Below the pieces are notes generated by a model. The model saw nothing but the letters and a program-made list of their open reading frames with translations, was not told the DNA's origin and ran no database searches. From NCBI GenBank assembly GCA_029560815.1, contig JAKQKF010000189.1:1-12659 (forward strand): DNA of 12,659 nucleotides, in the 5' to 3' direction. The translations under genes were made by a program, and so were the position numbers. This DNA comes from a bacterium (lineage in GTDB: Bacteria > KSB1 > UBA2214). Position 1 is the stretch's first letter. The number at the start of each line of letters is the position of its first letter. This document shows positions 1 through 12,659 of the stretch, piece after piece.

Positions 1-2565
1 GGAATTGATCAGCGAGCGGTTGAGCTCGGTGAAGACCGTATAGGTGTTGACGTCGCCGCGGCCGCAGAGCGGGAAGCGGCCGCTGTTGCGCACCAGCATG
101 CTCTCGCCTTCGGCCTTGTGCCGGTCCTCGGCAAAGGCACGGTAGAGCGCCGGATCGCTCTGCTGCAGGGCCTCGATCATGCGTCGGCGCTGCGCAGCGT
201 TGGCTGCGCCGGCGATGCCGGGATGCCGCTCGGCGAACCATTCCTTTTCCTGCAGCTTGATCCGTTCCCACGGCGGGTTGCCGAGCACGACATCGAACCC
301 TCCTGCGCTGCCGCCAGAGGCAAAAACCTCTGGAAAAGCCAGGTGCCAGTGAAAAAAACCGTACTGGCGCCGTAGCCGCTCCACCTCCTCGTACATCCAG
401 GTAGGGATGCTTCCGGGCTCCGCCTCGATAGTGCGAAAGACCTCGTTGGTGATCGCATAAGGAAACTCGCGAATCTTCTTCCAGACAAAGGCGGCGCACC
501 AAAGATCGGCGAGCAGGCGGCCGAAGAGAAAGGCGGGCGAGTTGATGATCTCCTGGTAGCGCTGCGATTTGTTGCGGTAGCCGGCCAAGGTTTCGTCACT
601 GACGCGGTCCATGGCCTTCATGGCGCCGGCGAAATCGCCCAGCCGCTGCCAGGGCGCGGTTGCCGCGTAAAAGAGATCCTGCTGGCTGGTCTCGCGTTCG
701 CTCTTGTTGAGCCGCTTCGCTGCCGTGCAGACTGTTTTGTCGTCGCCATCGAGGGCTGCAAAGGCCTCATCGGGAATGCCGGCGGCCATCAGCTCAGGCG
801 TGGTACCCAAAAGCGAATTGCCGCGCTGAATGTGGTGGTCGAGAAAGGAGAGCGGCTTGCCCGGTTCGAGGGCCTCGAGCCAGAGGCCGACCTTGCAGAG
901 CTCCACTGCCATTTCGTTGATGTCGACGCCATAGATGCAGTGGCCGATGACCCGGCGCAAGGCGGCGCGCAGGGCCTCGGGCGCAGGCTCGCTCTCGCCG
1001 GTGACGGCGGCGGCGAGGCAGTGGGCGATGCGATGCGCCGCGGCGATGAGAAAGTGGCCGCTGCCGCAGGCGGGATCGCAGATTTTAAGGGCGAGGATGG
1101 CCGCTTCCGGATCGGGCTGCCGGGCTGCGGCATCGAGCACTGGATCCAGGGCCGAATCGAGCAGCTCGTGGATGAGGCTGGAGGGGGTGTAATAGCTGCC
1201 GGTGGACTTGCGCTCGTGGCCGCCGGCGGTGTGCAGACTGAAATCGCCGCTCTCGAGGTTGAGTTGGGGATGCAGCTCGAGCAGGGACTCGTAGACGCTG
1301 CCCAGCTCCTCGGCGCCGAGGTTGCGGTAATCGACCTGACGGCGGCTGCGGCCGTCGCTGATGACCGCGAGGTGACGGATGGCCTCGAGAAAATCGCGGT
1401 TGGCTATCTGCGCCCCGTCCAGATCGGGCGCCGCCTGCGCAGAGAAGAGGAAGGAGCCGAGCGCGGGCAGGGCCAGCTCGGGCGAGCCGCCTTCATCGCC
1501 CAGCTTACGCAGCACGATCATCAAGCCCTGGTAGAGATCGGCATGCTTGCTCCCGCGGCGGCGGGCGGCAAGACGACGCAGGCGCCGGGTGGAATAGTAT
1601 TCATAGTAGCGCCGTTTGGCCTCATCCACAGCCTCGGGCAGGAGCAGCAGCCGGCGCTCCTCGGCGACGAAGAGAAAGATCAGACGGTAGACCAGACGCA
1701 GAAGCTGGCGGTAAAAGTCCTGCTTGTCGAGTTCCGCCGCAAAGAGCCTCTGCCGCAGGGTCTTGTTGCCCGGGTGGCGGAGAAAGCCGCTGCCGAGGGT
1801 GGCGATGGCCGCCTCGACACCACTGCGCAGCTGGTCGAGGGCACGGGTGCCCTGCTCCTGCGCCGCCCGGGACCAGCGCTCCAGCCAGCAGTTTTCCGGG
1901 CGCGCGGCCTCCACCCTCGACTGGTGGCAAAGGAGCCAGAGCAGGACAAAATCGGCATAGACCTCGCCGCGCATCATCGCCTCGAGATCAAACTCGACCC
2001 AGGCCTGGCGGGTGAGGCTGACGTTGTCGCGGAGGATGCGCAACCGGCGGCCGTTGGAGAGCAGGGCCCAGAGCCGGTCCTCGGCGCGGTTGAGCAGCTC
2101 CTGAATCATGCTGTGCGGCGAGCTGCGGCTGGCGCCGGCAACACCGGCGGTGCGCCGGTCGAGGTCAATCCCCCAGCCGACTAGATGAATGGGCAGGATC
2201 TGCCAGGCGTGGGAGACCGCATAGCTTTTGCCCTCGATCTCGATGGCGCGGGCCGGGGCCAGACGCCCGTAGCCGAGCTCGCGGAAGAGGTGCAGCAGCC
2301 ATTTCTCGCGGGTGAGGGAGGTGGCGGCATCGCTTTCCGGCAGCGCGCCGAGATGCTCCTGAAAGGCCGCCCAGGCGCCGGTAAGACGGTTCCAGGAGCG
2401 GCTGGTCACCTCGTTGATCTTTTCGCCCTCGATGAGATGATAGGCATCGGGGGTGAGCCCCTCCAATCCGGGATCGCCGGCAGCGATGCGCTGGAGCAGG
2501 TCTGGCGGCAGGATGGCCCCTTCGATGTGGATGGTGGTGAACAGGTCGCGGCTGCGGGTTTGCAT
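1..2565 (-). CDS. Eco57I/PglX-like adenine-specific DNA methyltransferase, DISARM DrmMI-like (3' part missing)
   Basis: This gene probably makes N6-methyladenine marks that label host DNA as self in a DISARM-like system. Reading the minus strand from ATG at 2565 gives 855 open codons that continue past the left edge, so the C-terminal part (rest of the catalytic region and target recognition) is missing. Visible motifs are GSYYTPSSLIHELLD (residues 456-470, motif X region), the SAM-binding motif I DPACGSGHF (497-505), YGVDINEMAVELCK (545-558, the acidic SAM-ribose strand), and catalytic motif IV NPPW (763-766) after FDVVLG. The helical N-terminal ~450 residues resemble the leader of Eco57I/PglX-type enzymes. 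An in-frame TAA at 2575-2577 means 2565 is the first possible start. Its ribosome site is weak (only GGA, five bases upstream), so it may be translationally coupled to the short ORF ending 17 bases upstream. A BREX PglX is possible by family, but no BREX partner is present and the helicase neighbours favour DISARM. Confidence 0.88.
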   Translation of the reverse strand, partial: MQTRSRDLFTTIHIEGAILPPDLLQRIAAGDPGLEGLTPDAYHLIEGEKINEVTSRSWNRLTGAWAAFQEHLGALPESDAATSLTREKWLLHLFRELGYGRLAPARAIEIEGKSYAVSHAWQILPIHLVGWGIDLDRRTAGVAGASRSSPHSMIQELLNRAEDRLWALLSNGRRLRILRDNVSLTRQAWVEFDLEAMMRGEVYADFVLLWLLCHQSRVEAARPENCWLERWSRAAQEQGTRALDQLRSGVEAAIATLGSGFLRHPGNKTLRQRLFAAELDKQDFYRQLLRLVYRLIFLFVAEERRLLLLPEAVDEAKRRYYEYYSTRRLRRLAARRRGSKHADLYQGLMIVLRKLGDEGGSPELALPALGSFLFSAQAAPDLDGAQIANRDFLEAIRHLAVISDGRSRRQVDYRNLGAEELGSVYESLLELHPQLNLESGDFSLHTAGGHERKSTGSYYTPSSLIHELLDSALDPVLDAAARQPDPEAAILALKICDPACGSGHFLIAAAHRIAHCLAAAVTGESEPAPEALRAALRRVIGHCIYGVDINEMAVELCKVGLWLEALEPGKPLSFLDHHIQRGNSLLGTTPELMAAGIPDEAFAALDGDDKTVCTAAKRLNKSERETSQQDLFYAATAPWQRLGDFAGAMKAMDRVSDETLAGYRNKSQRYQEIINSPAFLFGRLLADLWCAAFVWKKIREFPYAITNEVFRTIEAEPGSIPTWMYEEVERLRRQYGFFHWHLAFPEVFASGGSAGGFDVVLGNPPWERIKLQEKEWFAERHPGIAGAANAAQRRRMIEALQQSDPALYRAFAEDRHKAEGESMLVRNSGRFPLCGRGDVNTYTVFTELNRSLINS

Positions 2566-2582
2566 AACAGTCCGTTATTGAG

Positions 2583-2774
2583 TTAAATTCGCAGGCCAAT
2601 GCCGCGTAAAATATAATCGACGCGTTCAGCCGCATCAGGAAAAAGGAGCGGGGGTACCGAGCCGCCTACAATGACCATATCATCCCGAAAGGCGCCGAGG
2701 ATGTGAATCAGCTCGATTAATACGGAGCGGCTGGCCGCCACTTCTCTTTCGCCATAGTCTAATTTGCTGACCAT
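2583..2774 (-). pseudogene. Truncated AbiEii-type nucleotidyltransferase (toxin remnant)
   Basis: This 63-codon frame overlaps the end of the AbiEi-like gene by 16 bases, the usual position for the toxin of an AbiE pair. Residues 19-49 (an LIELIHILGAFRD helix, then MVIVGGSVPPLLFP) resemble the start of AbiEii/AbiGii-like nucleotidyltransferases, where VGG-x-x-P-x-L-L precedes the G-S-x-x-D-x-D metal-binding motif. Here the sequence goes from PDAAE straight to RVDYILRGIGLRI and a TAA stop, with no DxD motif; intact relatives are, from memory, about 250-300 residues. The catalytic core is therefore gone and the product cannot be an active nucleotidyltransferase. The tail could be the original C-terminus fused by an in-frame internal deletion, but that is inferred. 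Family assignment rests on a short stretch plus gene context. Confidence 0.6.
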
Positions 2775-3814
2775 AGCGGCTCCAGAATCTTGTCGAAGAG
2801 AAATTGCGCCGCCTCTTCTCCACGGCCTTTATAACTGTGAAGGTCGAGATAGAGCTGCACGGGAGAAACTATCACCAGCCCATCTACATTTTGCAGGCCA
2901 TAAAAAACGCCTTGATCATAGGGCGTCAGCAGCGTCACATTGGCCCCGCTGTCCACCGGTTTCAATAAAAGTTCGCTGCTTATCAATGTCACATCTTTCT
3001 CGACATAGGCGAAGAGCTGCTTTATACGGGTGTAGGGGGCCACTCGCGCTGCGCCGGTGAAAAACGCTATTGCATAGTTCAGGTTTCTGTTGCTGCAAAC
3101 ATTTGCCAGTGCTTGTTCGATCCTGCTATCCAGGCTGTAGAATTGGCTAATGTAATTTTTTTGATAGGTGTAATTCCCTTTCCAGTCCTCAAGTAATTCG
3201 CGCCAGGCGATTAGTTGCATGCCATCGCGGCCATCCCTGACCCATTCAAGTTTGAGCAAATGCTGCTTAACTTTGAAAACCAGACCGAGGCTTACGCCGG
3301 CCTCCCTTGCCAGTGAATCTGTTTTCCACGACCGGCCGGGATTTGCCAACAGAACGCGCAGAATCCGTTCCGCCTTGGGATAGTATAACGATTTTAATAA
3401 TTTATTCTCCGGACGAAGATCAGATTTGCCCGTTCGTTCGATGTAGATGTTCTGAAAACTGAGCCAGCAATTTCCGGAAAAATCGAGGTAGCCTATGCCG
3501 GCCTCGCGGCACAATGCCGCGGATTTTTCGAACAGAGCGGGAGCGACGATCAGACCATAGGCATGGTCCATATGTTGCAGCCGTTCATGCATTTTTGAGA
3601 TGGACTGGCGTACATAACGCGGCTCGCCATTTCCCAGCACTTCGACGAGTAAATGGATGTTCTTGCCGGAAACGCTGAGCGTCACCCGATAGTCTTCAGC
3701 GCTTTGCTGATCCTGAGCCGCAGGTTGAATATCCACGCTGTTAATAAGCGGAATCGCCAACAGGTTTTTCTGCAACAGCTCCTGGATCCGCCGATCTTCT
3801 TTATTGGCTTCCAT
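2759..3814 (-). CDS. AbiEi-like type IV antitoxin / winged-helix transcriptional regulator
   Basis: This 351-residue protein resembles the AbiEi-family antitoxin that autorepresses AbiE type IV toxin-antitoxin operons. The N-terminal domain (about 40-128) has the pattern LLVEVLGNGEPRYVRQ, then YGLIVAP, then GIGYLDFSGNCWLSF and YIER, which recalls a restriction-endonuclease-like fold; L60 sits where a catalytic lysine would be expected, so it looks inactive. A winged helix follows (about 146-205) with the helix-turn-helix in SWKTDSLAREAGVSLGLVFKVKQHL. The C-terminal region ends in SPVQLYLDLHSYKGRGEEAA (317-336), characteristic of the AbiEi C-terminal domain. The ATG at 3814 has a GGAG ribosome site seven bases upstream. 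It is preceded by its own promoter and a nested palindrome, which fits autoregulation. Its base composition is less GC-rich than the adjacent helicase and methylase genes, suggesting separate acquisition. The toxin partner downstream is only a fragment. Confidence 0.75.
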   Translation of the reverse strand: MEANKEDRRIQELLQKNLLAIPLINSVDIQPAAQDQQSAEDYRVTLSVSGKNIHLLVEVLGNGEPRYVRQSISKMHERLQHMDHAYGLIVAPALFEKSAALCREAGIGYLDFSGNCWLSFQNIYIERTGKSDLRPENKLLKSLYYPKAERILRVLLANPGRSWKTDSLAREAGVSLGLVFKVKQHLLKLEWVRDGRDGMQLIAWRELLEDWKGNYTYQKNYISQFYSLDSRIEQALANVCSNRNLNYAIAFFTGAARVAPYTRIKQLFAYVEKDVTLISSELLLKPVDSGANVTLLTPYDQGVFYGLQNVDGLVIVSPVQLYLDLHSYKGRGEEAAQFLFDKILEPLWSAN

Positions 3815-3821
3815 TTTTATG

Positions 3822-3825
3822 CTCC
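3822..3825 (-). promoter_or_regulatory. Ribosome binding site of the AbiEi-like gene
   Basis: On the minus strand GGAG lies seven bases before ATG at 3814. This good Shine-Dalgarno match supports the chosen start. Confidence 0.65.
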
Positions 3826-3847
3826 AGAGAAGGATTCTTCCTTCCTG

Positions 3848-3876
3848 AATATAGGCCGAAAATGAGTGTGAAGCAA
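3848..3876 (-). promoter_or_regulatory. Sigma70-like promoter for the AbiEi-like gene and probably the methylase
   Basis: On the minus strand a -35-like TTGCTT (3871-3876) is separated by exactly 17 bases from a -10-like TATATT (3848-3853, five of six to consensus). Transcription would start near 3841, giving a leader of about 26 bases to the ATG at 3814. The -35 lies beside the outer half-site of the palindrome at 3880-3937, so a bound protein would touch it. A second -10-like TATATT (3889-3894) lies inside the operator, with TTTTCA (3913-3918) as a possible -35 at 18 bases. Either promoter would transcribe the antitoxin, toxin remnant and methylase independently of the helicases. Confidence 0.5.
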
Positions 3877-3879
3877 GCG

Positions 3880-3937
3880 ATTTTCACTAATATAGCCATT
3901 TTCACCGTACGGTGAAAATAACTTAAATAGTGAAAAT
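3880..3937. promoter_or_regulatory. Nested palindromic operator with four ATTTTCAC half-sites
   Basis: The core at 3898-3919 is a perfect 22-base palindrome: ATTTTCACC, a central GTAC, then GGTGAAAAT. An outer pair, ATTTTCACTA (3880-3889) and TAGTGAAAAT (3928-3937), is also perfectly inverted and shares the same centre, between 3908 and 3909. Corresponding half-sites are 18 bases apart on each side. This symmetry is unlikely by chance in 177 bases. It lies upstream of and partly overlapping candidate promoters of the AbiEi-like gene. AbiEi proteins are known to bind inverted repeats and repress their own operon cooperatively, so this is the likely operator for the winged-helix protein encoded next to it. 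Confidence 0.7.
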
Positions 3938-3969
3938 GACTGAACCACAAGGATGACTGGAACACAAAG
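3936..3969. repeat. Two tandem 17-base direct repeats
   Basis: ATGACTGAACCACAAGG (3936-3952) is followed without a gap by ATGACTGGAACACAAAG (3953-3969), with 14 of 17 bases identical. They lie between the nested palindrome and the end of the SNF2 helicase gene. They could be a binding-site duplication or a replication-slippage scar. Confidence 0.45.
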
Positions 3970-3981
3970 TGAACCTTTGTG
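3963..3981 (-). other. Small perfect stem-loop just after the SNF2 helicase stop codon
   Basis: CACAAAG and CTTTGTG form a perfect seven-base stem around a five-base loop, eleven bases downstream of the SNF2 helicase stop. It has only three G-C pairs and no T-run follows on the minus strand, so it is not a canonical intrinsic terminator. It might protect the 3' end of the helicase message or slightly attenuate read-through into the AbiEi-like gene. Confidence 0.3.
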
Positions 3982-3991
3982 CTCTTTGCAA

Positions 3992-6811
3992 CTAAACCGG
4001 CAAATAGAGATAAATGCCCAGCACATCCGGCGGGAGGACCGGCTCGACGCGGACCTGCATCCCCTTGATCCGGGCCGCTGTGCGAACGCGGTTGTGGGCG
4101 GTTAAAAGATCCTGGCTGCGCAATGCGGCCTGCTCCGCCAGGCGGGCCTGAACAGGTTCAAACAGCGCCAGAATCTGGCTGATCTGCTGGCGTGCCTGCT
4201 CAGGCGGGACATTCGCTTCCGGCTGAGCCTCCAGCAGAGCCTCTACTGCTTCGCGGTCTAGCCAACCAGCCTCCTGCGGCGCGCCGGTAAAGCCGAGCAG
4301 CTGCGCCTCCTCCGCCAGCAGGGTCTTCTCGCGGCCATCGCGATGGGTTATCAAATGGTAGCGGCAGCGGGCCAGTATCAGGGTGGTGCGCCGCTGCACG
4401 CGGCCGGTGCGGATTACCCCGCAACGCCGGGCCACACCTTTCTCCAGTGGATCGAGGGCAGTATCAAGCACATACCCGGCCAGGCTTTCGACAAAGGGAT
4501 GGGAGCGATTGAGATAGCGCACACCCTCAGGCACCGGCAGATTGAAAGCGGCCTTGAAGCGGGTCTCGCTGATCAAGTCGCGCAGTCCGGCCGGGACTTC
4601 GCGCAGATCCAAGTGCAGCACCCCATCGCCGGAGAGGACGCCGCCGAGGGCACGGACCGCCGTGCGGGTGAATCCGGCCACCTCGCTCGTGCTGCCGATA
4701 GCCGCCCGCACCTGCTGCAGCTCCTCATGCACCTCCTCGACCTTGATGGTGTGCTGGGCAAAGAGGGAACGCGAAACCTGTTCGCGTTTGTAAAGCTCGT
4801 CATACTGCCGGGCGATGGTGTCGCGCTGCGGTTTGAGATATTCCTCAAAGCCGGGCAGCAGCAGCTGATCGCCGGCGTTGGGACCGGCGCGCAGCAGCAG
4901 CCCCTCAAAGATGGCCTCGATAAGCTGATCGGTTTGCGCCGGTACGGGGATGGAGATGCCGAGGGCATTGCGGATCTGGCGATGCTTGCGCAGCAGCACA
5001 TCGAGGACGATGCCGTCGATCTGGTTGTCGATGCCGTAATAGGTGATCACCCGGATCTTTTCGCGTGGCTGCCCGAAGCGGTCGACCCGGCCTTCGCGCT
5101 GCTCATGACGGGTCGGGTTCCAGGAGAGATCGTAGTGCATCACCGCATCGAAATGCTCCTGGAGGTTGATGCCCTCGCTGAGGGCGTCGGTGCAGACCAG
5201 GATGTGCTTTTCCGCAGAGGCGAGCTGCTCGATGCGGGTCTCGCGCTCCGCCGGTGGAATGTCGCCGGTGATGGCCGCGATCTCGACCTCCTTGGGCAGG
5301 GCGCTGCGCAGGGCATCGGCGAGATAGTGCACCGTGGGGATGAAGCGGCAAAAGATGATGGGATGGTAGCCGTCGGCCAGGGTCTGTTTGATCAGGTGCA
5401 CGGCGCCCTGCAGCTTGGCATCGTCCGCCCCCTGCAGGCTCTCGGCGGTGCGTGCCATGCGCAGCAGGCGTTCGCGGTTTTTGCGTTCGTCGTTGGCCAA
5501 CTCGCCAATATCGCTGCCGGGAGTGGCATCGATGGTGGTGGCGGCCTCCTCGACGACGAGATCGAGTACGGTGCGGCGGCCGATTGCATCCGCCTCTTCG
5601 GCGGTTTCGGTGTCGGCTGCCGCGGCGCGGTTACGCAGTGTGGCGGCTGCCGCCGCCGGACTGGAGGCGAGCGCGCGCAGCAGGGCCAGGGCCGACCACC
5701 AGGCGACGCGCTGACGGAAGGTCATTTGCCCGGGCTCGGCGACAGTCTCGCGGGCATAGCTGATCACCTGGTTGAAGAAACGGCGGTAGGGTTCCGAGAG
5801 CTTGTAGACCGGTTCGGGTTCGAGCAGCACCCGCTCGGGGAAGCGGGTCTCCTCACCCATAAAGGCCTTGATATGGCCGCGCTGGCGCTGGACAAAATGG
5901 TGCGCCAGCCTGCGACGATGGCTTTCGTTTTCCGGGCCGGCCAGATTCTCCGGCAAGGCGCGGAACTCTTCGTCCAGCAGGGCCAGCAGAGAGCGAAAGG
6001 CATCCTCCTTGCCGCTATGCGGCGTGGCAGTGACCAGGAGGAGATGGCGCGAGGGATCCCGGCTGATGCCCTGGATGAGCTGATGGCGCTGGTGCTGACC
6101 GCGGTTGCGCTCGCCGGCAAAGGCGCAGGTGTGGGCCTCATCGACGATGACGAACTCGGGGCAGGTGCGCAGAAAATCGTCGCGGCGGCGGTCGGATTTG
6201 ATGAAATCGGTCGAGACCACGACAAAGGGATAGTGCTCAAAAAGGGATTCACCCGGCCGGCACTCCCTCTCCAGCCGGCCCGCCGTATGGGTCAGCACCA
6301 GTTCGGCGGAGATATGAAATTTCTCATCCAGCTCGCTCTGCCACTGTTCGGCCAGCTGCGGCGGGCAGAGCACGGCGATGCGTTCGATCTCGCCGCGGTC
6401 GAGCAGCTCGCGGGCGATGAGGCAGGCCTCGATGGTCTTGCCGATACCGACATCGTCGGCGATAAGCAGGCGCACGGGATCGAGTCGAAGGGCCATGAGC
6501 AGAGGTGTGAGCTGATAAGGCCGGGGCTCGACGGCAATTTTGCCGAAAGAGCGGAAGGGACCGGCGCTGGAGCGAAAGCCGATGCGCAGGGCGTCGCGGA
6601 GCAGATGGCAGGAGCGGTAATCGCCAAGTTGCCCCGGATCGGGGAGATCGAAGCGGGCGGAGCAGACTTTTTCCAGGGCAGTGAGAATGCCGGTGATCTC
6701 GTCCTCGGCGCCGCCGAGGGGCCGCACCATAAGCAGTTCCTCATTCGAACCGGGCAGGACCACCCATTCACGGCCGCGCGCATGGACCAGAGAGCCGACA
6801 GCGTAACTCAT
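3992..6811 (-). CDS. SNF2/HepA-family helicase, DISARM DrmD-like
   Basis: This 939-residue cytoplasmic superfamily 2 ATPase of the SNF2/RapA type is expected to translocate on DNA. Motifs in order: RPYQ (97-100, Q-motif region), Walker A DDVGIGKT (119-126), LCPPQLAEQW (148-157, Ia), Walker B DEAH (224-227), TATPHSGK (261-268, III), GYHPIIFCRFIPTVHYLADAL (481-501, start of the second RecA lobe, given by position: key residues F487, C488, F490), TDALSEGINLQ (541-551, V) and QREGRVDRFGQ (571-581, VI). The C-terminal third (about 640-939) is helical, has no motif I recognise, and may be an interaction or DNA-handling region. Its ATG overlaps the upstream helicase stop as ATGA (6808-6811), so the two should be made together. 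A 1.0-kb-scale methylase gene follows after the AbiE-like cassette, matching the drmD/drmMI pairing of class 1 DISARM. A generic SNF2 helicase from another defence system is the main alternative. Confidence 0.88.
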   Translation of the reverse strand: MSYAVGSLVHARGREWVVLPGSNEELLMVRPLGGAEDEITGILTALEKVCSARFDLPDPGQLGDYRSCHLLRDALRIGFRSSAGPFRSFGKIAVEPRPYQLTPLLMALRLDPVRLLIADDVGIGKTIEACLIARELLDRGEIERIAVLCPPQLAEQWQSELDEKFHISAELVLTHTAGRLERECRPGESLFEHYPFVVVSTDFIKSDRRRDDFLRTCPEFVIVDEAHTCAFAGERNRGQHQRHQLIQGISRDPSRHLLLVTATPHSGKEDAFRSLLALLDEEFRALPENLAGPENESHRRRLAHHFVQRQRGHIKAFMGEETRFPERVLLEPEPVYKLSEPYRRFFNQVISYARETVAEPGQMTFRQRVAWWSALALLRALASSPAAAAATLRNRAAAADTETAEEADAIGRRTVLDLVVEEAATTIDATPGSDIGELANDERKNRERLLRMARTAESLQGADDAKLQGAVHLIKQTLADGYHPIIFCRFIPTVHYLADALRSALPKEVEIAAITGDIPPAERETRIEQLASAEKHILVCTDALSEGINLQEHFDAVMHYDLSWNPTRHEQREGRVDRFGQPREKIRVITYYGIDNQIDGIVLDVLLRKHRQIRNALGISIPVPAQTDQLIEAIFEGLLLRAGPNAGDQLLLPGFEEYLKPQRDTIARQYDELYKREQVSRSLFAQHTIKVEEVHEELQQVRAAIGSTSEVAGFTRTAVRALGGVLSGDGVLHLDLREVPAGLRDLISETRFKAAFNLPVPEGVRYLNRSHPFVESLAGYVLDTALDPLEKGVARRCGVIRTGRVQRRTTLILARCRYHLITHRDGREKTLLAEEAQLLGFTGAPQEAGWLDREAVEALLEAQPEANVPPEQARQQISQILALFEPVQARLAEQAALRSQDLLTAHNRVRTAARIKGMQVRVEPVLPPDVLGIYLYLPV

Positions 6812-9800
6812 GCCGGGCTCCCGAAAATCCAGGGGTACTGCGCTACTATCGCCCGCCAGTCTTCATCCCGTTCGAAACGGACCACGGTGATGCCGCGGTC
6901 GGCCAGGGCCGCCTCCTGCTCGCGGTCGCGCTGCCGGCGCTCCGGAAAGAGGTGATGCGGGCCGTCGATGTAGACGGCGGCATACTGCTCCTGGTAAAAG
7001 AAATCGGGGCGGGTGCGGCATTCCGCGATCAGATACTGAGCGTGGGAGGGCAGCCGCAGGTTGAGCTCCTCGAGAAGGTGCAGCCATTTGCGTTCGAGAT
7101 CCGAGCCGGACAGGCGTTCCAGATTACGCAGGTGCTCTTCGCGGCTGACAGATCGGGGCGAAAGCCGCACCACGGCGCCAGTGAGTGCCATAAGTAGATC
7201 GCGGATTTTTTTGCGGTCGAGCAGGGGATGGTCGGGCTGATTGCCGTAGCTCATCAGGCAGTCGTAGCAGGCCGCCTCGCAGTTTTCCCTGGCGCGCGGG
7301 GCCTTGAGCAGATCATCGCCGCTGGCGGGTTCGTAATGGCATACTTCCAGAGCCCGCCGGGCGATCGATGCGAATGCCCCGGGATCGGTGAGCAGGCGGC
7401 GCAGCACGCCGGCGCCGCCCTCGGCCGCCTCGTAGAGCAGGATGAATTTGCGCTGATCCCTATTGGGCAGGGGCTCAACCGCCAGTTCCTGGTCTTCGAG
7501 CTGGTATTCGACCTGAATGGCCGATTTCAGGGCCGCCTGCAGCGAGGCCATCTGGCCGGTGTCGAGTTCCCCGGTGAACTCGATGATCAGGCTGTTGCGG
7601 CGGTCCTCGACGTAGGGACGCACCCGCTGCCGCCGGCTGGATAGCTCCTCCTCATCATCCTCGGCGTTGTTCTCGCTCTTTTCCCAATAGCCTTTTTCGA
7701 TATCGAGCAGAAAACCCGACTGGGCGCGGTTTTTGCGCCGCTTCCAGCCCAGATTGATACGCCAGATGGTGGCGGTATGCCCGTATTTCAGCCGGGCCAG
7801 TGGCGCATCGCCGGCGACGATTTCGCCCTGGATGAAGGCCGGACGGCCCTCCTGCTCGTGAAAGCGCACGGCGGTCAGCAGTTCATACCCCAGGCGCATC
7901 CGCTCCTCTTCATCGGAGGTGATACGGTCGCGCCGACGGGTGGAAACGTTCTGCAGGCGCAGAAGCGACTCGAGTGGCAGGTCGAGGGGGTTGTGGCAGT
8001 TTTCGCACAGATCGGGACCGACACCACTTTGCGCAGGGTGGAGGTAGCCACAGTGCTCGCAAAGCTTGGCGGCGGCGGTTTCCAGCTCATCGCCTTGCAT
8101 GGTGAGGAGCACGCGGTTTATGTCATAGCGCGAGCCCTCGTGATAGATAAAGGCGCGTGGGCCGAATTCCGAGATGGCGAGGAAGCGGGGCCGGGAGAGA
8201 AATTCGTCGCGCTGCTTGAGACGGCGGCCGGGCACATAGGCTGAAAGGGGAAGACGCGGAAAGCTGTAGCCCGGCAAGAATCCCTCGCTGGCGAAATAGC
8301 GATAGATGTAGAAATCGGATTGGACTACATTTTCAATTTCGGTGAGGAGCTTGAGCTGCGATTCGGCCTCACGACGCAGGCGTTCGGCGCGGTTGCGCTC
8401 CGCCTGTGGCCGGGTGGCATCACGGATGACCTTGTCCTGTGCTTTGGCCTGGGCCAGCGCGGTGCGATAGAGTTCACGCCAGCGGGTGCAAGCCTTTTCG
8501 AAATCCTCGAGGCAATGGCTGAGCACCTCCTCCAGCCAGAGAGGATGGAACCAGTCTGTTTGCACAAGTTCGGAGTGGATGCCGGCGAGGATTGGCTCCG
8601 CCTTGTGACGGGCGCGTTCCACAGCGGGGGCCGAGGAGAGATCGGCGAGGACATCGCTCATCAGGACGAGCGAGGGTTCCGGGCCGCTGAGGTCGAGGAT
8701 ATCCTTGAGAGAACTGCCCAGGCGGGGCCGGGCCTCTGCGAGCCAGAGGGCATGGATATGAGCCTTGATGAGGTCCTCATTGGCCAGGTCAAGGCGCGGC
8801 GGTGCGACCTGGCCGGAGACCATCAGCTCGGGCCGCTTGAAAAAATACTGGTCGTGCGGGCTGCCGGTGGTGCAGTAGGTAAAGACGACGGCGGGTTGAC
8901 CGCTGCGGCCGGCGCGTCCGCTGCGCTGGGCGTAATTGGCCGGCGTCGGCGGCACATTGCGCATATTGACCACATTGAGCTCGTCGATGTCCACGCCCAG
9001 TTCCATGGTCGGCGAGCAATAGAGGACAGGCAGCCGGGCGGTCTTGAAACGCTGCTCGCGTTCCTCCCGCAGTTCATTGGGGACCTGTGCGGTATGTTCC
9101 CGCGCTTCAAAGCCGGCGGTCCGGGAGGCGGTCTCGCGGTAGTAGTGGAGAAAATAGGGATTGGTGCGGCTGCCTGCGGCGGGAAGATGGGGGACACGGA
9201 TGGGATCGTGAAAGGCCCTGCGGCCGTCCCCCGCGTGCCAGGTCATGGCCGCGGCGGCAAGCTGGTAGCCCGGGCAGGCGGGATCGCCGGCGTCGACCGC
9301 GATCACCAGACCGGCCTCGGCCAGGAGGGCGAGGAGATCACGGATGAGCTGCTCGGTTTCATCCACGGTCAGCTTCCCTTTAAAGCTGCGGAAGGTGTCG
9401 GGACGGCGGAGGTAGATGCCGAAGCCGCTGCGGCCGGAGAGATAAATCTCGCCCCAGGCTTTGGCGCCGCCGCTGGAGCGCGGAAAGAGCAGGGCGCCCC
9501 GTTCCATCTTTTCGTCCTCATCAAGCGCCCAGGGAGCGACCAGATACTGGTTGTTCTGCTGCTGGATGCGCTCCTGATATCCGGCATCGAGATAGTCCAC
9601 CTTGATGGCAAGCTCGCGGCGCATATAATCGAGCAGCACCTTCATCACCCGGCGGCGCTCGTCCACCGAGGCGGAGGCGAGGACGGGATGCCACTCCTGC
9701 CAGAGGTCGTCGGCCTGTGAGAGTTCTTCCAAAGAGGTATAATGGATTTCGAGCAGGCCGCACTGCTCCAGGTTAGGCGAGGTGATGCGCCAGCCGCGCA

Positions 9801-11964
9801 GCAGATCGCGGTAGAGGCGGTAGCCGAGGACGTTGCGGAAGGCCCTTTCAGCATTCTCCTTTTCGGCAAAGCGGGCGCCCGGCGTGACCGCCCAGGCGAC
9901 TGGTAGCAAGTCAAGGGCGGCAAAAACCGCCTGGGTCAGTTCATCGTGGCGCAGACCCGGGCCGCCGGCATTGGCAGCGGCGCGGTAGAGGGCAGCGCGC
10001 AGCACGCCGATCTCGATGAAATCATTGAAATGGCCCGCCTGCAGCGAGGCATCCTGGCGGTTGTCGGTAAAGCTGAGCAGCTTGCGTGCTTTTTGGGGAA
10101 GCTCATGGTCCTTCTGCAGATAATGGATAGTGGACATACTCAGGATGGTGGTAGCGGTGCTACGGCCTTCCGAGGAGAGGGTGGTCAGCTTGGCAAATTC
10201 GCTTTTCTGGCGGCTGCCATAGGCCACCCCGCAATGGAGGCAGAAGGAAAAGGGGCGCTGGATAAAGTAAAAGACCATCCCCTGCTCGTCATATTGACCC
10301 CTGCTGTTCAGTGGCAGACGCAGAGGGAGTTTCGGGCTGCGATCCTTGCGCACCTCCGGCACGCCGCTGCGCATCTCCAGCCACTCTTCCGGTACGCGCG
10401 CGAGCAGATCCTCCCGGCCTTCGCTCCAGGGATTCTCCGTGCTGTAATAGAGGAATCCCGCCTGCTGATCTTCGTCAAGGGGCTGGTCGTTTAACCCGCG
10501 CGGCGTGACGACAGGGCCCTCGTTGGTTTTGGCAAGAAAGACTGTAAAATATTCCTGGCCGCATTCGCGGCAAAAGGCGAGGGGCAGCAGGATTTTTGCA
10601 CGGTCTCCGGGCACGAACTGCTGGCCGTAGAGGGTGATCTTGCGCTCCTGTTCGGGTTCGAGCGAGGCGTAGACTGTGTCGCCACGGCTGATGAACTGGT
10701 GGAGGCGGAAAACGAAGGGAGGGGTGGAGCTGCCCGGCAGGGGCGTGCTGCGGTTGCCCGCCAGCAAGGCTTCACGGATGATGTTGACACAGTGATCGGC
10801 CGGGGCGCCGGTCAGCTGCGCCAGGCTTTGAGCGGCACCCTCCTTCCCGCCGATGGCACAGGGCTGAGCACGGAGCAGCCGGCCGCTCTCCGGGTCGGTG
10901 GTCACTCCGAAGCAGGATTCGAGCCAGGAGACAATTGGCTGCTGGATAAACCCGGCGCCTTCTGCCGGGAGGGCGGCTTGGGTTTCCACTTGTTGGATCA
11001 GGGCGCTTCGCGCCGGATCCTGCCTGAAATCGATCTCCGGCGTCAATCTTTTTAGAGTTTCGCCGATGACATCTTCCGGCCTGACCTCAGTGCCAAAGAG
11101 CTGACTGGCGACCCGGGCGACTTCCTGCCGCTGTTCCTGAAAGGTACCCGCACCGGCAAGGGTGGCCGAAGTTCCGATGCACTGCATCTGGTAAGCGGCC
11201 AGGCTTTCGCGAACACGCCGGACGAGCAGGCTGACATCGGCGCCCTGGCGGCCGCGGTAGGAGTGGAGTTCATCGAGAACGAGAAACTGCAGATTTCGGG
11301 CCGAGCGTACGAGTTCGCGCTCTTCGGGGCGGGTAAGGATCAGCTCGAGCATCACATAATTGGTGAGCAGGATATCGGGAGGATTCTGGATGATGGCCTT
11401 GCGCTGCTCTTCCTTTTCCTGCCCGGTATATTTGGCGAAACGGAGGGGATAGCGATCGCTGGGGAAGCCATAGTGGATGAATTTCTCCAGTTCGCCATAC
11501 TGGCTGTTGGCGAGGGCGTTCATCGGGTAGATGATGATTGCCTTGATGCCCTTACCCGGGCCGTTTTGCAAAACCGCATTGACGATGGGGATGATATAAG
11601 CCAGACTCTTGCCCGAACCGGTGCCGGTGGTGAGGACATAAGAGAGGCCGGTCTGGGCCGTATGGATGGCATCGGTTTGATGACGGTGCAGGCGCAAAGG
11701 CTGGCCCAAATCCTGCGGATCGCTCTTGCGGCGGAAAATGGTTTTGCATAGGGGGTGGAGGATACCCTGGTTTGCAAGCTCATCGATCCAGGCGCCGGGT
11801 TCAAAGGCAGGATTGAGCTGGATCAGGGCTTCGGGCCAGAGTTCGCCGTTATCGAGGATTTCATGGACATAGGAGTGGATGCGCGGATCGTTGATCTGAA
11901 TGAAACTCTCAACGTAATCGCGGTAATCCCGGATCAGCTGTTTGCGAAAGTTAAAGACATCCAT
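6808..11964 (-). CDS. Giant DEAD/DEAH helicase with DUF1998 region and C-terminal nuclease-like domain (DrmA-DrmB-like fusion)
   Basis: This 1718-residue protein probably unwinds or translocates on DNA and may cut it. Helicase lobe 1 contains RLHRHQTDAI (91-100), Walker A TGTGSGKS (113-120), YPMNALANSQ (146-155), TNYVMLE (201-207), Walker B DELH (231-234) and GTSATLA (264-270). Lobe 2 has CSPTMELGVDIDELNVVN (983-1000) and NYAQRSGRAGRSGQ (1010-1023). Between the lobes is an unusually long insert with two CxxC pairs (C465/C468 and C575/C578). A second CxxC set is at C1302/C1305 and C1320/C1323. The DUF1998-type region (about 1500-1580) has YEAAEGGAGVLRRLL and clustered cysteines C1562, C1566, C1569. 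Residues 1615-1705 resemble a Vsr/DUF559 nuclease: E1624, RPDF with D1653, YIDGPHH with D1667, then D1680 and G-I-T-V-V-R-F. MrfA-type helicases with DUF1998 are usually far shorter. ATG at 11964 has AAAGG seven bases upstream. Confidence 0.88.
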   Translation of the reverse strand: MDVFNFRKQLIRDYRDYVESFIQINDPRIHSYVHEILDNGELWPEALIQLNPAFEPGAWIDELANQGILHPLCKTIFRRKSDPQDLGQPLRLHRHQTDAIHTAQTGLSYVLTTGTGSGKSLAYIIPIVNAVLQNGPGKGIKAIIIYPMNALANSQYGELEKFIHYGFPSDRYPLRFAKYTGQEKEEQRKAIIQNPPDILLTNYVMLELILTRPEERELVRSARNLQFLVLDELHSYRGRQGADVSLLVRRVRESLAAYQMQCIGTSATLAGAGTFQEQRQEVARVASQLFGTEVRPEDVIGETLKRLTPEIDFRQDPARSALIQQVETQAALPAEGAGFIQQPIVSWLESCFGVTTDPESGRLLRAQPCAIGGKEGAAQSLAQLTGAPADHCVNIIREALLAGNRSTPLPGSSTPPFVFRLHQFISRGDTVYASLEPEQERKITLYGQQFVPGDRAKILLPLAFCRECGQEYFTVFLAKTNEGPVVTPRGLNDQPLDEDQQAGFLYYSTENPWSEGREDLLARVPEEWLEMRSGVPEVRKDRSPKLPLRLPLNSRGQYDEQGMVFYFIQRPFSFCLHCGVAYGSRQKSEFAKLTTLSSEGRSTATTILSMSTIHYLQKDHELPQKARKLLSFTDNRQDASLQAGHFNDFIEIGVLRAALYRAAANAGGPGLRHDELTQAVFAALDLLPVAWAVTPGARFAEKENAERAFRNVLGYRLYRDLLRGWRITSPNLEQCGLLEIHYTSLEELSQADDLWQEWHPVLASASVDERRRVMKVLLDYMRRELAIKVDYLDAGYQERIQQQNNQYLVAPWALDEDEKMERGALLFPRSSGGAKAWGEIYLSGRSGFGIYLRRPDTFRSFKGKLTVDETEQLIRDLLALLAEAGLVIAVDAGDPACPGYQLAAAAMTWHAGDGRRAFHDPIRVPHLPAAGSRTNPYFLHYYRETASRTAGFEAREHTAQVPNELREEREQRFKTARLPVLYCSPTMELGVDIDELNVVNMRNVPPTPANYAQRSGRAGRSGQPAVVFTYCTTGSPHDQYFFKRPELMVSGQVAPPRLDLANEDLIKAHIHALWLAEARPRLGSSLKDILDLSGPEPSLVLMSDVLADLSSAPAVERARHKAEPILAGIHSELVQTDWFHPLWLEEVLSHCLEDFEKACTRWRELYRTALAQAKAQDKVIRDATRPQAERNRAERLRREAESQLKLLTEIENVVQSDFYIYRYFASEGFLPGYSFPRLPLSAYVPGRRLKQRDEFLSRPRFLAISEFGPRAFIYHEGSRYDINRVLLTMQGDELETAAAKLCEHCGYLHPAQSGVGPDLCENCHNPLDLPLESLLRLQNVSTRRRDRITSDEEERMRLGYELLTAVRFHEQEGRPAFIQGEIVAGDAPLARLKYGHTATIWRINLGWKRRKNRAQSGFLLDIEKGYWEKSENNAEDDEEELSSRRQRVRPYVEDRRNSLIIEFTGELDTGQMASLQAALKSAIQVEYQLEDQELAVEPLPNRDQRKFILLYEAAEGGAGVLRRLLTDPGAFASIARRALEVCHYEPASGDDLLKAPRARENCEAACYDCLMSYGNQPDHPLLDRKKIRDLLMALTGAVVRLSPRSVSREEHLRNLERLSGSDLERKWLHLLEELNLRLPSHAQYLIAECRTRPDFFYQEQYAAVYIDGPHHLFPERRQRDREQEAALADRGITVVRFERDEDWRAIVAQYPWIFGSPA

Positions 11965-11971
11965 GAGCGAG

Positions 11972-11976
11972 CCTTT
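11972..11976 (-). promoter_or_regulatory. Ribosome binding site of the giant helicase
   Basis: AAAGG on the minus strand lies seven bases before ATG at 11964 and supports that start. Confidence 0.5.
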
Positions 11977-12086
11977 GCCTGGAGAAATTCACTTTCTGCG
12001 CAAGAAGTTTCAATGGGATCGCTATGGTGAATCGGAGAGGATATTTGGAAGGCCCCGGAAACCCGTCACCAAGTTGCTTGATGTCT

Positions 12087-12351: not shown

Positions 12352-12659
12352 ATGATCCATTACCTTTATCGCGAACAGGTCGTCAGCGCCTCCCTGGAGG
12401 AGGTCTGGGACTTTTTTTCCACCCCCCGCAATCTCAATGCCCTCACCCCGGATGAGCTCTCCTTCCGCATCATCGGCGAGCCCGCCGGATCGATGTACGA
12501 GGAGCAGGTCATTGAATACCGGGTCAGCTTCATGAAAGGGATCTGGTCGAAATGGTTGACCGAAATCACCCACGTATCCGAGAAACGTTTTTTTGTCGAT
12601 GAGCAGCGCGTCGGGCCCTACAAGCTCTGGCATCACGAGCACCATTTTTTGGTGGAGGG
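12352..12659 (+). CDS. SRPBCC-family protein, START/Bet v 1-like fold (3' part missing)
   Basis: The frame begins at ATG 12352 and is still open at the right edge after 102 codons. It starts MIHYLYREQVVSASLEEVWD and continues FFSTPRNLNALTP, the typical N-terminal strand, helix and proline-containing loop of SRPBCC ligand-binding proteins; a later segment around residues 50-100 (IEYRVSFMKGIWSKWLTEI, then KLWHHEHHF) fits the following beta strands. The family binds hydrophobic ligands in a cavity; no substrate can be predicted here. An in-frame TGA at 12343-12345 fixes the start, and GTGAGG lies four bases upstream. It points away from the defence operon and shows no functional link to it, so it is probably flanking chromosomal sequence. 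Confidence 0.8.
   Translation, partial: MIHYLYREQVVSASLEEVWDFFSTPRNLNALTPDELSFRIIGEPAGSMYEEQVIEYRVSFMKGIWSKWLTEITHVSEKRFFVDEQRVGPYKLWHHEHHFLVE

Follow-up and report, generated by a model that had tools for sequence, protein, structure and literature searches.

The operon on this stretch of bacterial DNA raises two questions: which defense system it represents, and what an AbiE-like cassette is doing between its genes. A preliminary description of the locus had proposed a DISARM-like operon of unusual architecture. The window, meaning the whole stretch of DNA analyzed, is 12,659 nucleotides long, and all coordinates below refer to it.

Gene content of the window

Five open reading frames (ORFs) follow one another on the minus strand. 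The first encodes a YprA-family helicase (ArmC-like; 1718 amino acids [aa]; positions 6808 to 11964), with a DUF1998/MZB domain on the same chain, and was identified by Pfam, motifs, and sequence identity. It is followed by ORFs for a BrxHII/RapA-like SNF2 helicase (ArmA-like; 939 aa; positions 3992 to 6811; PADLOC, Pfam, and identity), an AbiEi-family protein (PF09952; 351 aa; positions 2759 to 3814; Pfam AbiEi_2), a stub of an AbiEii toxin (63 aa; positions 2583 to 2774; match to the AbiEii N terminus), and a PglX-like adenine methylase (ArmB-like; positions 1 to 2565; PADLOC, Pfam, identity, and motifs), which crosses the left edge of the window and is visible for its N-terminal 855 aa. The start of the SNF2 gene shares 4 bases with the stop of the YprA-type gene, and the methylase starts 17 nucleotides (nt) past the stop codon of the stub. 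ORF prediction, Pfam, and motif searches agree with the preliminary description that a DEAD/DEAH-DUF1998 helicase, an SNF2 helicase, and an Eco57I-type methylase lie in one orientation. No tRNA was found in the window. On the plus strand, a divergent SRPBCC-family gene (positions 12352 to 12659) is cut at the window edge, and its best named relatives (79%) were MAGs.

DEAD, Helicase_C, and MZB/DUF1998 domains were all annotated by Pfam in the 1718-aa chain, with the MZB/DUF1998 zinc-binding domain at residues 1475 to 1570 (positions 7255 to 7542, minus strand; 42.5 bits, cutoff of 24.2), which bears out the proposal that DrmA-like and DrmB-like parts share one chain. Pattern searches recovered the helicase motifs GTGSGKS, DELH, and QRSGRAGR, and the CxxC pairs at residues 465/468 and 575/578 were invariant in 32 aligned rows. 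The C-terminal ~100 residues (about residues 1620 to 1718; positions 6811 to 7107, minus strand) are predicted to form a Vsr-like PD-(D/E)xK nuclease fold, in which E1624, D1654, D1667, H1671, and D1680 are invariant. The preliminary description had seen no separate DrmC, and no DrmC phospholipase D gene was found among the window's five frames, up to the left window edge where the search ends; a nuclease is not absent, given this Vsr-like C-terminal stretch of the giant protein.

The 939-aa protein contains SNF2-rel_dom and Helicase_C domains (Pfam) and the motifs DEAH and QREGRVDR (pattern search). Its Walker A motif was missed by the pattern G.G.GKT, and by eye the frame reads DDVGIGKT at that place. 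The methylase frame matched Eco57I and N6_Mtase (Pfam) and contains the motifs GSYYTP, DPACGSGHF, and NPPW (pattern search).

Placement among DISARM-related systems

A scan of species genomes with the 32-helicase alignment yielded at least 585 candidates encoding a relative, and the best 80 loci were compared. The three genes were found together in the order of the window and on one strand in 53 of these 80; the set is not a chance association. Among the other 27 loci, 20 end ≤2.6 kb from the helicase. The pair is divergent in one (L026), neither partner gene was found by tblastn within 6 to 10 kb in two (L052 and L061) or within 2.8 kb in a third (L029), an SNF2 gene is present with no methylase match in 6.6 kb in L043, and only the SNF2 gene was found within 3 to 4 kb in L007 and L019. 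The same order occurs on plasmids of Deinococcus, Nocardioides, Roseomonas, and Sphingobium, and the order is reversed in Nostoc and Haloquadratum.

Two side observations concern these relatives. Five loci (L019, L025, L031, L045, and L079) have a UvrD-type helicase gene between the YprA and SNF2 genes (called by Pfam for L019, with the other four alike by eye and the N terminus RelE-like by eye); a UvrD-type ArmD gene is given as a Type II feature of ARMADA in the preprint introduced below (PMC12458937). In 4 of the 59 methylase hits spanning the site, an extra 161 to 275 aa, free of stops, lie between motif X and motif I (L012:12362-12844, L013:11699-12271, L023:10031-10855, and L070:8651-9151). 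The +1 frame of these inserts encodes a four-helix-bundle protein of the 23S rRNA-intervening-sequence type (IVP; PF05635, E values of 1.5e-34 to 6.8e-39), and the inserts have the look of a mobile IVP element, nested at a single site in ARMADA methylases and open in both frames. The window methylase is without such an insert; a phage methylase with a hidden-frame insert (ShiLan) provides a precedent (PMC11855218).

ARMADA, which combines the same three genes as the window, was defined in a preprint by Bell et al. in 2025 (PMC12458937). As given there, the general order of Type I is YprA helicase, BrxHII-like helicase, and PglX-like methylase, with the gene order reversed in many cyanobacteria and archaea, and the Type I YprA protein carries a Vsr-type nuclease at its C terminus; a BrxA-like domain behind RecA1 also counts among the Type I features. 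The experiments noted there are on Type II. The window contains a one-chain YprA-DUF1998 protein with a predicted C-terminal Vsr-type nuclease, a BrxHII/RapA-like helicase, and a PglX-like methylase, the last judged on its N-terminal part, with the C-terminal part lying beyond the window. The three genes are in the Type I order, interrupted by the AbiE cassette. The architecture that had been taken for unusual is, by the published definition, the normal layout of ARMADA Type I (PMC12458937).

The best PADLOC models were DruE3 for the giant helicase (2.1e-108), DpdE for the SNF2 helicase (1.8e-249), and DrmMI for the methylase (1.3e-73). These are defense families, and a placement of the proteins in housekeeping families therefore fails; together with the conserved gene order, the defense-family profiles uphold the view of a multigene defense operon related to DISARM class 1. 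PADLOC-DB 2.0.0 thus scatters its best models for a single ARMADA Type I operon over Druantia, Dpd, and DISARM. Curated NCBIfam cutoffs were reached by none of the families listed for the window proteins (DrmA, 21.7 bits against 950; DrmD, 324.7 bits against 610).

Comparison with a plasmid that carries both systems separated DISARM from ARMADA Type I. On Nocardioides plasmid pNOCA01 (L002/L111), typed as conjugative, annotated drmA, drmB, and drmD genes adjoin an ARMADA Type I operon. The window proteins were 46 to 49% identical to the ARMADA copies over nearly all of their visible length, and 25%, 39%, and 29% identical to the DISARM copies over only 98, 104, and 353 columns. The SNF2 helicase matched the ARMADA copy at 49% over 960 columns versus 39% over 104 columns for DrmD, of which only 526 residues were compared, and the methylase matched the ARMADA copy at 49% over 869 columns versus 29% over 353 columns for the DISARM copy.

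Among 15 same-order Type I rows, 14 were 44 to 60% identical to the window helicase over its full length, and the fifteenth, from Sphingobium (L104), was 38% identical, with a match that reaches residue 1585 only. Identity was 40% to the Nostoc protein, 31% to a Thermus row with a Type II-like order, 30% over 868 columns to the Haloquadratum protein, and 22 to 36% over parts of the E. coli ArmC, Gemmobacter ArmC, and DruE proteins; the DrmA match covered 98 columns only. In a 23-row helicase tree, which has long outgroup branches, drew program warnings, contains one DrmA row, and is without the preprint's own Type I reference, the window fell within a 17-row Type I group (support of 89/85, not starred) and, inside it, a six-row set (95/92). 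The reversed-order Haloquadratum row (L109) fell outside the Type I group, with Thermus (L105).

Two assignments were tried and rejected. For DISARM class 1, DrmA and DrmB are not separate genes here, and DrmA and DrmD fall below their curated cutoffs. For Druantia, no Dru partner was found among the window genes, the left flank lying outside the window, and identity to DruE III was 22.6% over 730 columns.

The original reading of a true DISARM class 1 operon, with DrmA and DrmB fused and DrmC located past the left edge, draws on the matches of the SNF2 helicase and the methylase to the DrmD and DrmMI profiles. Against it stand the missed DrmA and DrmD cutoffs, the ARMADA Type I identity of the best full-length relatives even on a plasmid that also carries DISARM, and the nuclease fused to the giant protein instead; we regard the DISARM reading as extremely improbable. 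Because the family hits, the order shared by 53 of 80 loci, the identities, the tree, the Vsr-like fold, and the published definition coincide, membership of the locus in ARMADA Type I, as a relative of DISARM, is well supported.

The AbiE cassette and its upstream palindrome

The unusual part of the operon is an AbiE cassette with a gutted toxin between the helicase and methylase genes. The earlier statement that an AbiE-like cassette splits the operon holds as to its position between the SNF2 and methylase genes, but the toxin-antitoxin pair is incomplete, its toxin being reduced to a stub of 63 aa. The AbiEi protein matched AbiEi_2 at 45.8 bits (cutoff of 21) and contains a winged helix. 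G+C content was 0.50 in the AbiEi gene and 0.38 in the gap ahead of it, compared with 0.62 to 0.66 in the operon genes. Proteins of the PF09952 "AbiEi" family look three-domained, with a PD-(D/E)xK-like domain, a winged helix, and a C-terminal nucleotidyltransferase-like domain. The ExK lysine of the nuclease-like domain, present in 43 of 52 rows, is lost in the window, which has L there as do two other rows, and this domain of the window AbiEi is probably inactive.

On the four plasmids examined first, AbiEi is followed by an AbiEii-type protein of 285 to 290 aa with overlapping ends, and full AbiEii toxin frames of 274 to 291 aa were found in plasmid, viral, and genome relatives. The stub corresponds to the first ~50 residues of such toxins (46.9% identity over 49 aa to the L092 toxin). 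It retains motif I (GG), whereas the DxD of motif II and everything after it are gone, leaving the protein without the AbiEii set of motifs I to IV. Since mutations in each of these motifs abolished toxicity in a studied AbiEii, though not at every residue (PMC3985639), the stub should by analogy be inactive. AbiEii frames are also shortened or broken behind AbiEi in three other loci (L113, L136, and L140), so toxin loss is not unique to the window; no AbiEii frame was seen behind the AbiEi of L163. In L161, a 196-aa frame behind AbiEi (positions 857 to 1447, minus strand) looks by eye like a different nucleotidyltransferase and not the usual AbiEii.

A palindromic stretch lies upstream of the AbiEi gene. 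Four ATTTTCAC half-sites in two inverted pairs occupy positions 3880 to 3937 (minus strand), the inner pair forming a perfect 22-bp palindrome (positions 3898 to 3919). These are the only four exact sites in the whole window, a number reached in 0 of 200 shuffles, and the stretch folds as a hairpin (z = -8.9). A sigma-70-like promoter match (TTTTCA or TTCACC / TATATT; positions 3889 to 3918, minus strand) overlaps it, at 9 of 12 consensus positions only and in a scan that gave 4 promoter matches versus 1.9 expected.

Conservation was assessed by counting the core TTTCA-N8/9-TGAAA within ≤260 nt upstream of AbiEi genes, with loci classed as nearer when ≥34% identical to their best match among six family members. 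In a first set, which helped to choose the pattern and from which 1 of 47 loci (L133) was dropped after its gene was not found by tblastn, the core occurred in 11 of 17 nearer loci (0.0 expected from shuffles) and 0 of 29 more distant ones (0.04 expected), and the other 174,630 bases of those loci gave a single match. In a later set of 37 loci, 8 of the 16 nearer ones and 2 of the 21 more distant ones had the core (0.02 expected per group), with a single match in 130,223 other bases. The core was lacking in 6 of the 17 and 8 of the 16 nearer loci, some of which are partial genes or contig ends, and 3 of 1,000 shuffles of the window's own 177-nt gap produce the short core by itself. One relative (L162) has 18 bases identical to the window's core together with a 283-aa toxin frame. 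In AbiE systems that have been studied, AbiEi binds inverted repeats and represses its own promoter without help from the toxin, for which no extra repression was detected (PMC3985639, PMC7319586). Positions 3880 to 3937 are a probable AbiEi operator.

We favor, at a probability of roughly 0.55, an ARMADA Type I operon in which an inserted AbiE cassette has left an AbiEi autorepressor whose promoter feeds the methylase. In this reading, the cassette was inserted at the SNF2-methylase junction and its toxin lost the catalytic core, whereas the AbiEi frame is full length and the probable operator ahead of it is intact. Because the methylase lies directly behind AbiEi and the stub, in the toxin's place, AbiEi most likely represses a promoter feeding AbiEi itself and the methylase: it would bind positions 3880 to 3937, over the weak promoter match, and repress its own gene, the stub, and the cotranscribed methylase, giving the operon an autoregulated internal methylase supply. 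Judging from its family, the methylase would mark host DNA as self. Phage DNA that is unmarked or replicating would be attacked directly by the BrxHII-like helicase and by the YprA protein, whose helicase core would load on exposed 3' single strands, a behavior demonstrated for its relative DruE, and whose fused Vsr-like domain would do the cutting. By analogy with the ARMADA Type II experiments and DruE biochemistry, the window copy would protect against phages without abortive suicide.

A further step, tentative and in our view possible but not probable, is that a toxin-antitoxin cassette has been domesticated as a switch of the defense operon. The toxin-free AbiEi, acting from its own operator, would then time or limit the ARMADA methylase as controller proteins do in restriction-modification systems, though its origin would be separate. 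Against cotranscription of the methylase, 5 terminator-like sites lie between positions 2500 and 4100, where 2.0 are expected, and AbiEi and the stub contain three of these on the coding strand; the one in the stub (positions 2637 to 2618) folds no better than shuffles (z = -0.53). The methylase could also be fed by read-through from the main promoter.

The gap between the SNF2 and methylase genes has a median of 19 nt and exceeds 200 nt in 9 of the 53 measurable loci among the best 80. A Pfam scan of the inserts other than those of L012, L013, and L021 found two PIN genes (L048), a nucleotidyltransferase (L030), Fic (L047), an AAA_21 ATPase (L028), REase-ARP (L042), and a PDDEXK_3 protein (L057). 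An HMM search that included the window protein as a positive control found an AbiEi gene in 0 of the best 80 loci; as no second ARMADA locus with AbiEi was found among them, nothing points to selection for the arrangement. The operon could be an ordinary ARMADA Type I with a decaying passenger, a neutral AbiE cassette at a tolerant junction that has lost its toxin and is losing AbiEi. Such decay accords with the variety of the scanned inserts and the lost ExK lysine, and the stub may be its ordinary product, as broken toxin frames recur in L113, L136, and L140. Yet AbiEi is a full-length open frame with database relatives at 99, 88, and 81% identity, and the palindrome is perfect; we consider a mere passenger rather unlikely.

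The orphan AbiEi might instead neutralize AbiEii toxins of phages or plasmids, as a second protective layer of the operon. In one AbiEi that has been studied, the C-terminal domain is enough for antitoxicity (PMC3985639), and plasmids do carry AbiE cassettes of the window AbiEi's family (matches in 79 of 72,556 records). Such a role would not need the operator to be kept in exact form, and the window AbiEi is only 30 to 34% identical to 20 plasmid AbiEi proteins among the matches listed; we consider it an improbable explanation beside that of an autorepressor feeding the methylase.

Comparison with known systems

ARMADA Type I is a known system, although its description dates only from 2025. 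An AbiEi cassette within such an operon is a new variation: none was found in print by a literature search at the level of titles and abstract openings, the main text of the ARMADA preprint (PMC12458937) has no occurrence of "AbiE," and nothing on ARMADA regulation was noted in the parts of the preprint consulted. If AbiEi does control the methylase, the locus would offer a testable route from selfish toxin-antitoxin pairs to immunity regulators. The palindrome reported here for the AbiEi family makes a concrete prediction that can be checked.

The window shares with published Type I operons a YprA-DUF1998-Vsr helicase followed by a BrxHII-like helicase and a PglX-like methylase (PMC12458937), and it differs in what separates the second gene from the third, namely the AbiEi cassette with its gutted toxin and the palindrome. 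ARMADA Type II of E. coli (L110, positions 12209 to 28453; genes assigned by order and the preprint's description) has the same three kinds of protein, but in the order BrxHII-methylase-YprA and with a UvrD-type helicase, and the window YprA matches its counterpart at 23% over 765 columns. DISARM class 1, as on Nocardioides pNOCA01 (L111), has related helicases and a methylase, but its DrmA and DrmB are separate and the matches are short and weak. Druantia III DruE (L110, positions 5671 to 11985, assigned by order) likewise has YprA and DUF1998 on one chain, but with PLD nucleases (PMC12458937) and a DruH partner. With AbiE type IV toxin-antitoxin systems, the window shares AbiEi, upstream inverted repeats, and an overlapping next gene, but its toxin is only 63 aa long and a methylase lies behind it. 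Both general features have precedents, a toxin-antitoxin system embedded in a restriction system in the RptR island (PMC12255303) and repressors of defense islands in BrxR (PMC9122601). BrxR and RptR are likewise regulators that control defense genes at palindromic or repeated sites, but they belong to other protein families (BrxR is a WYL protein), whereas the candidate regulator in the window comes from an inserted cassette.
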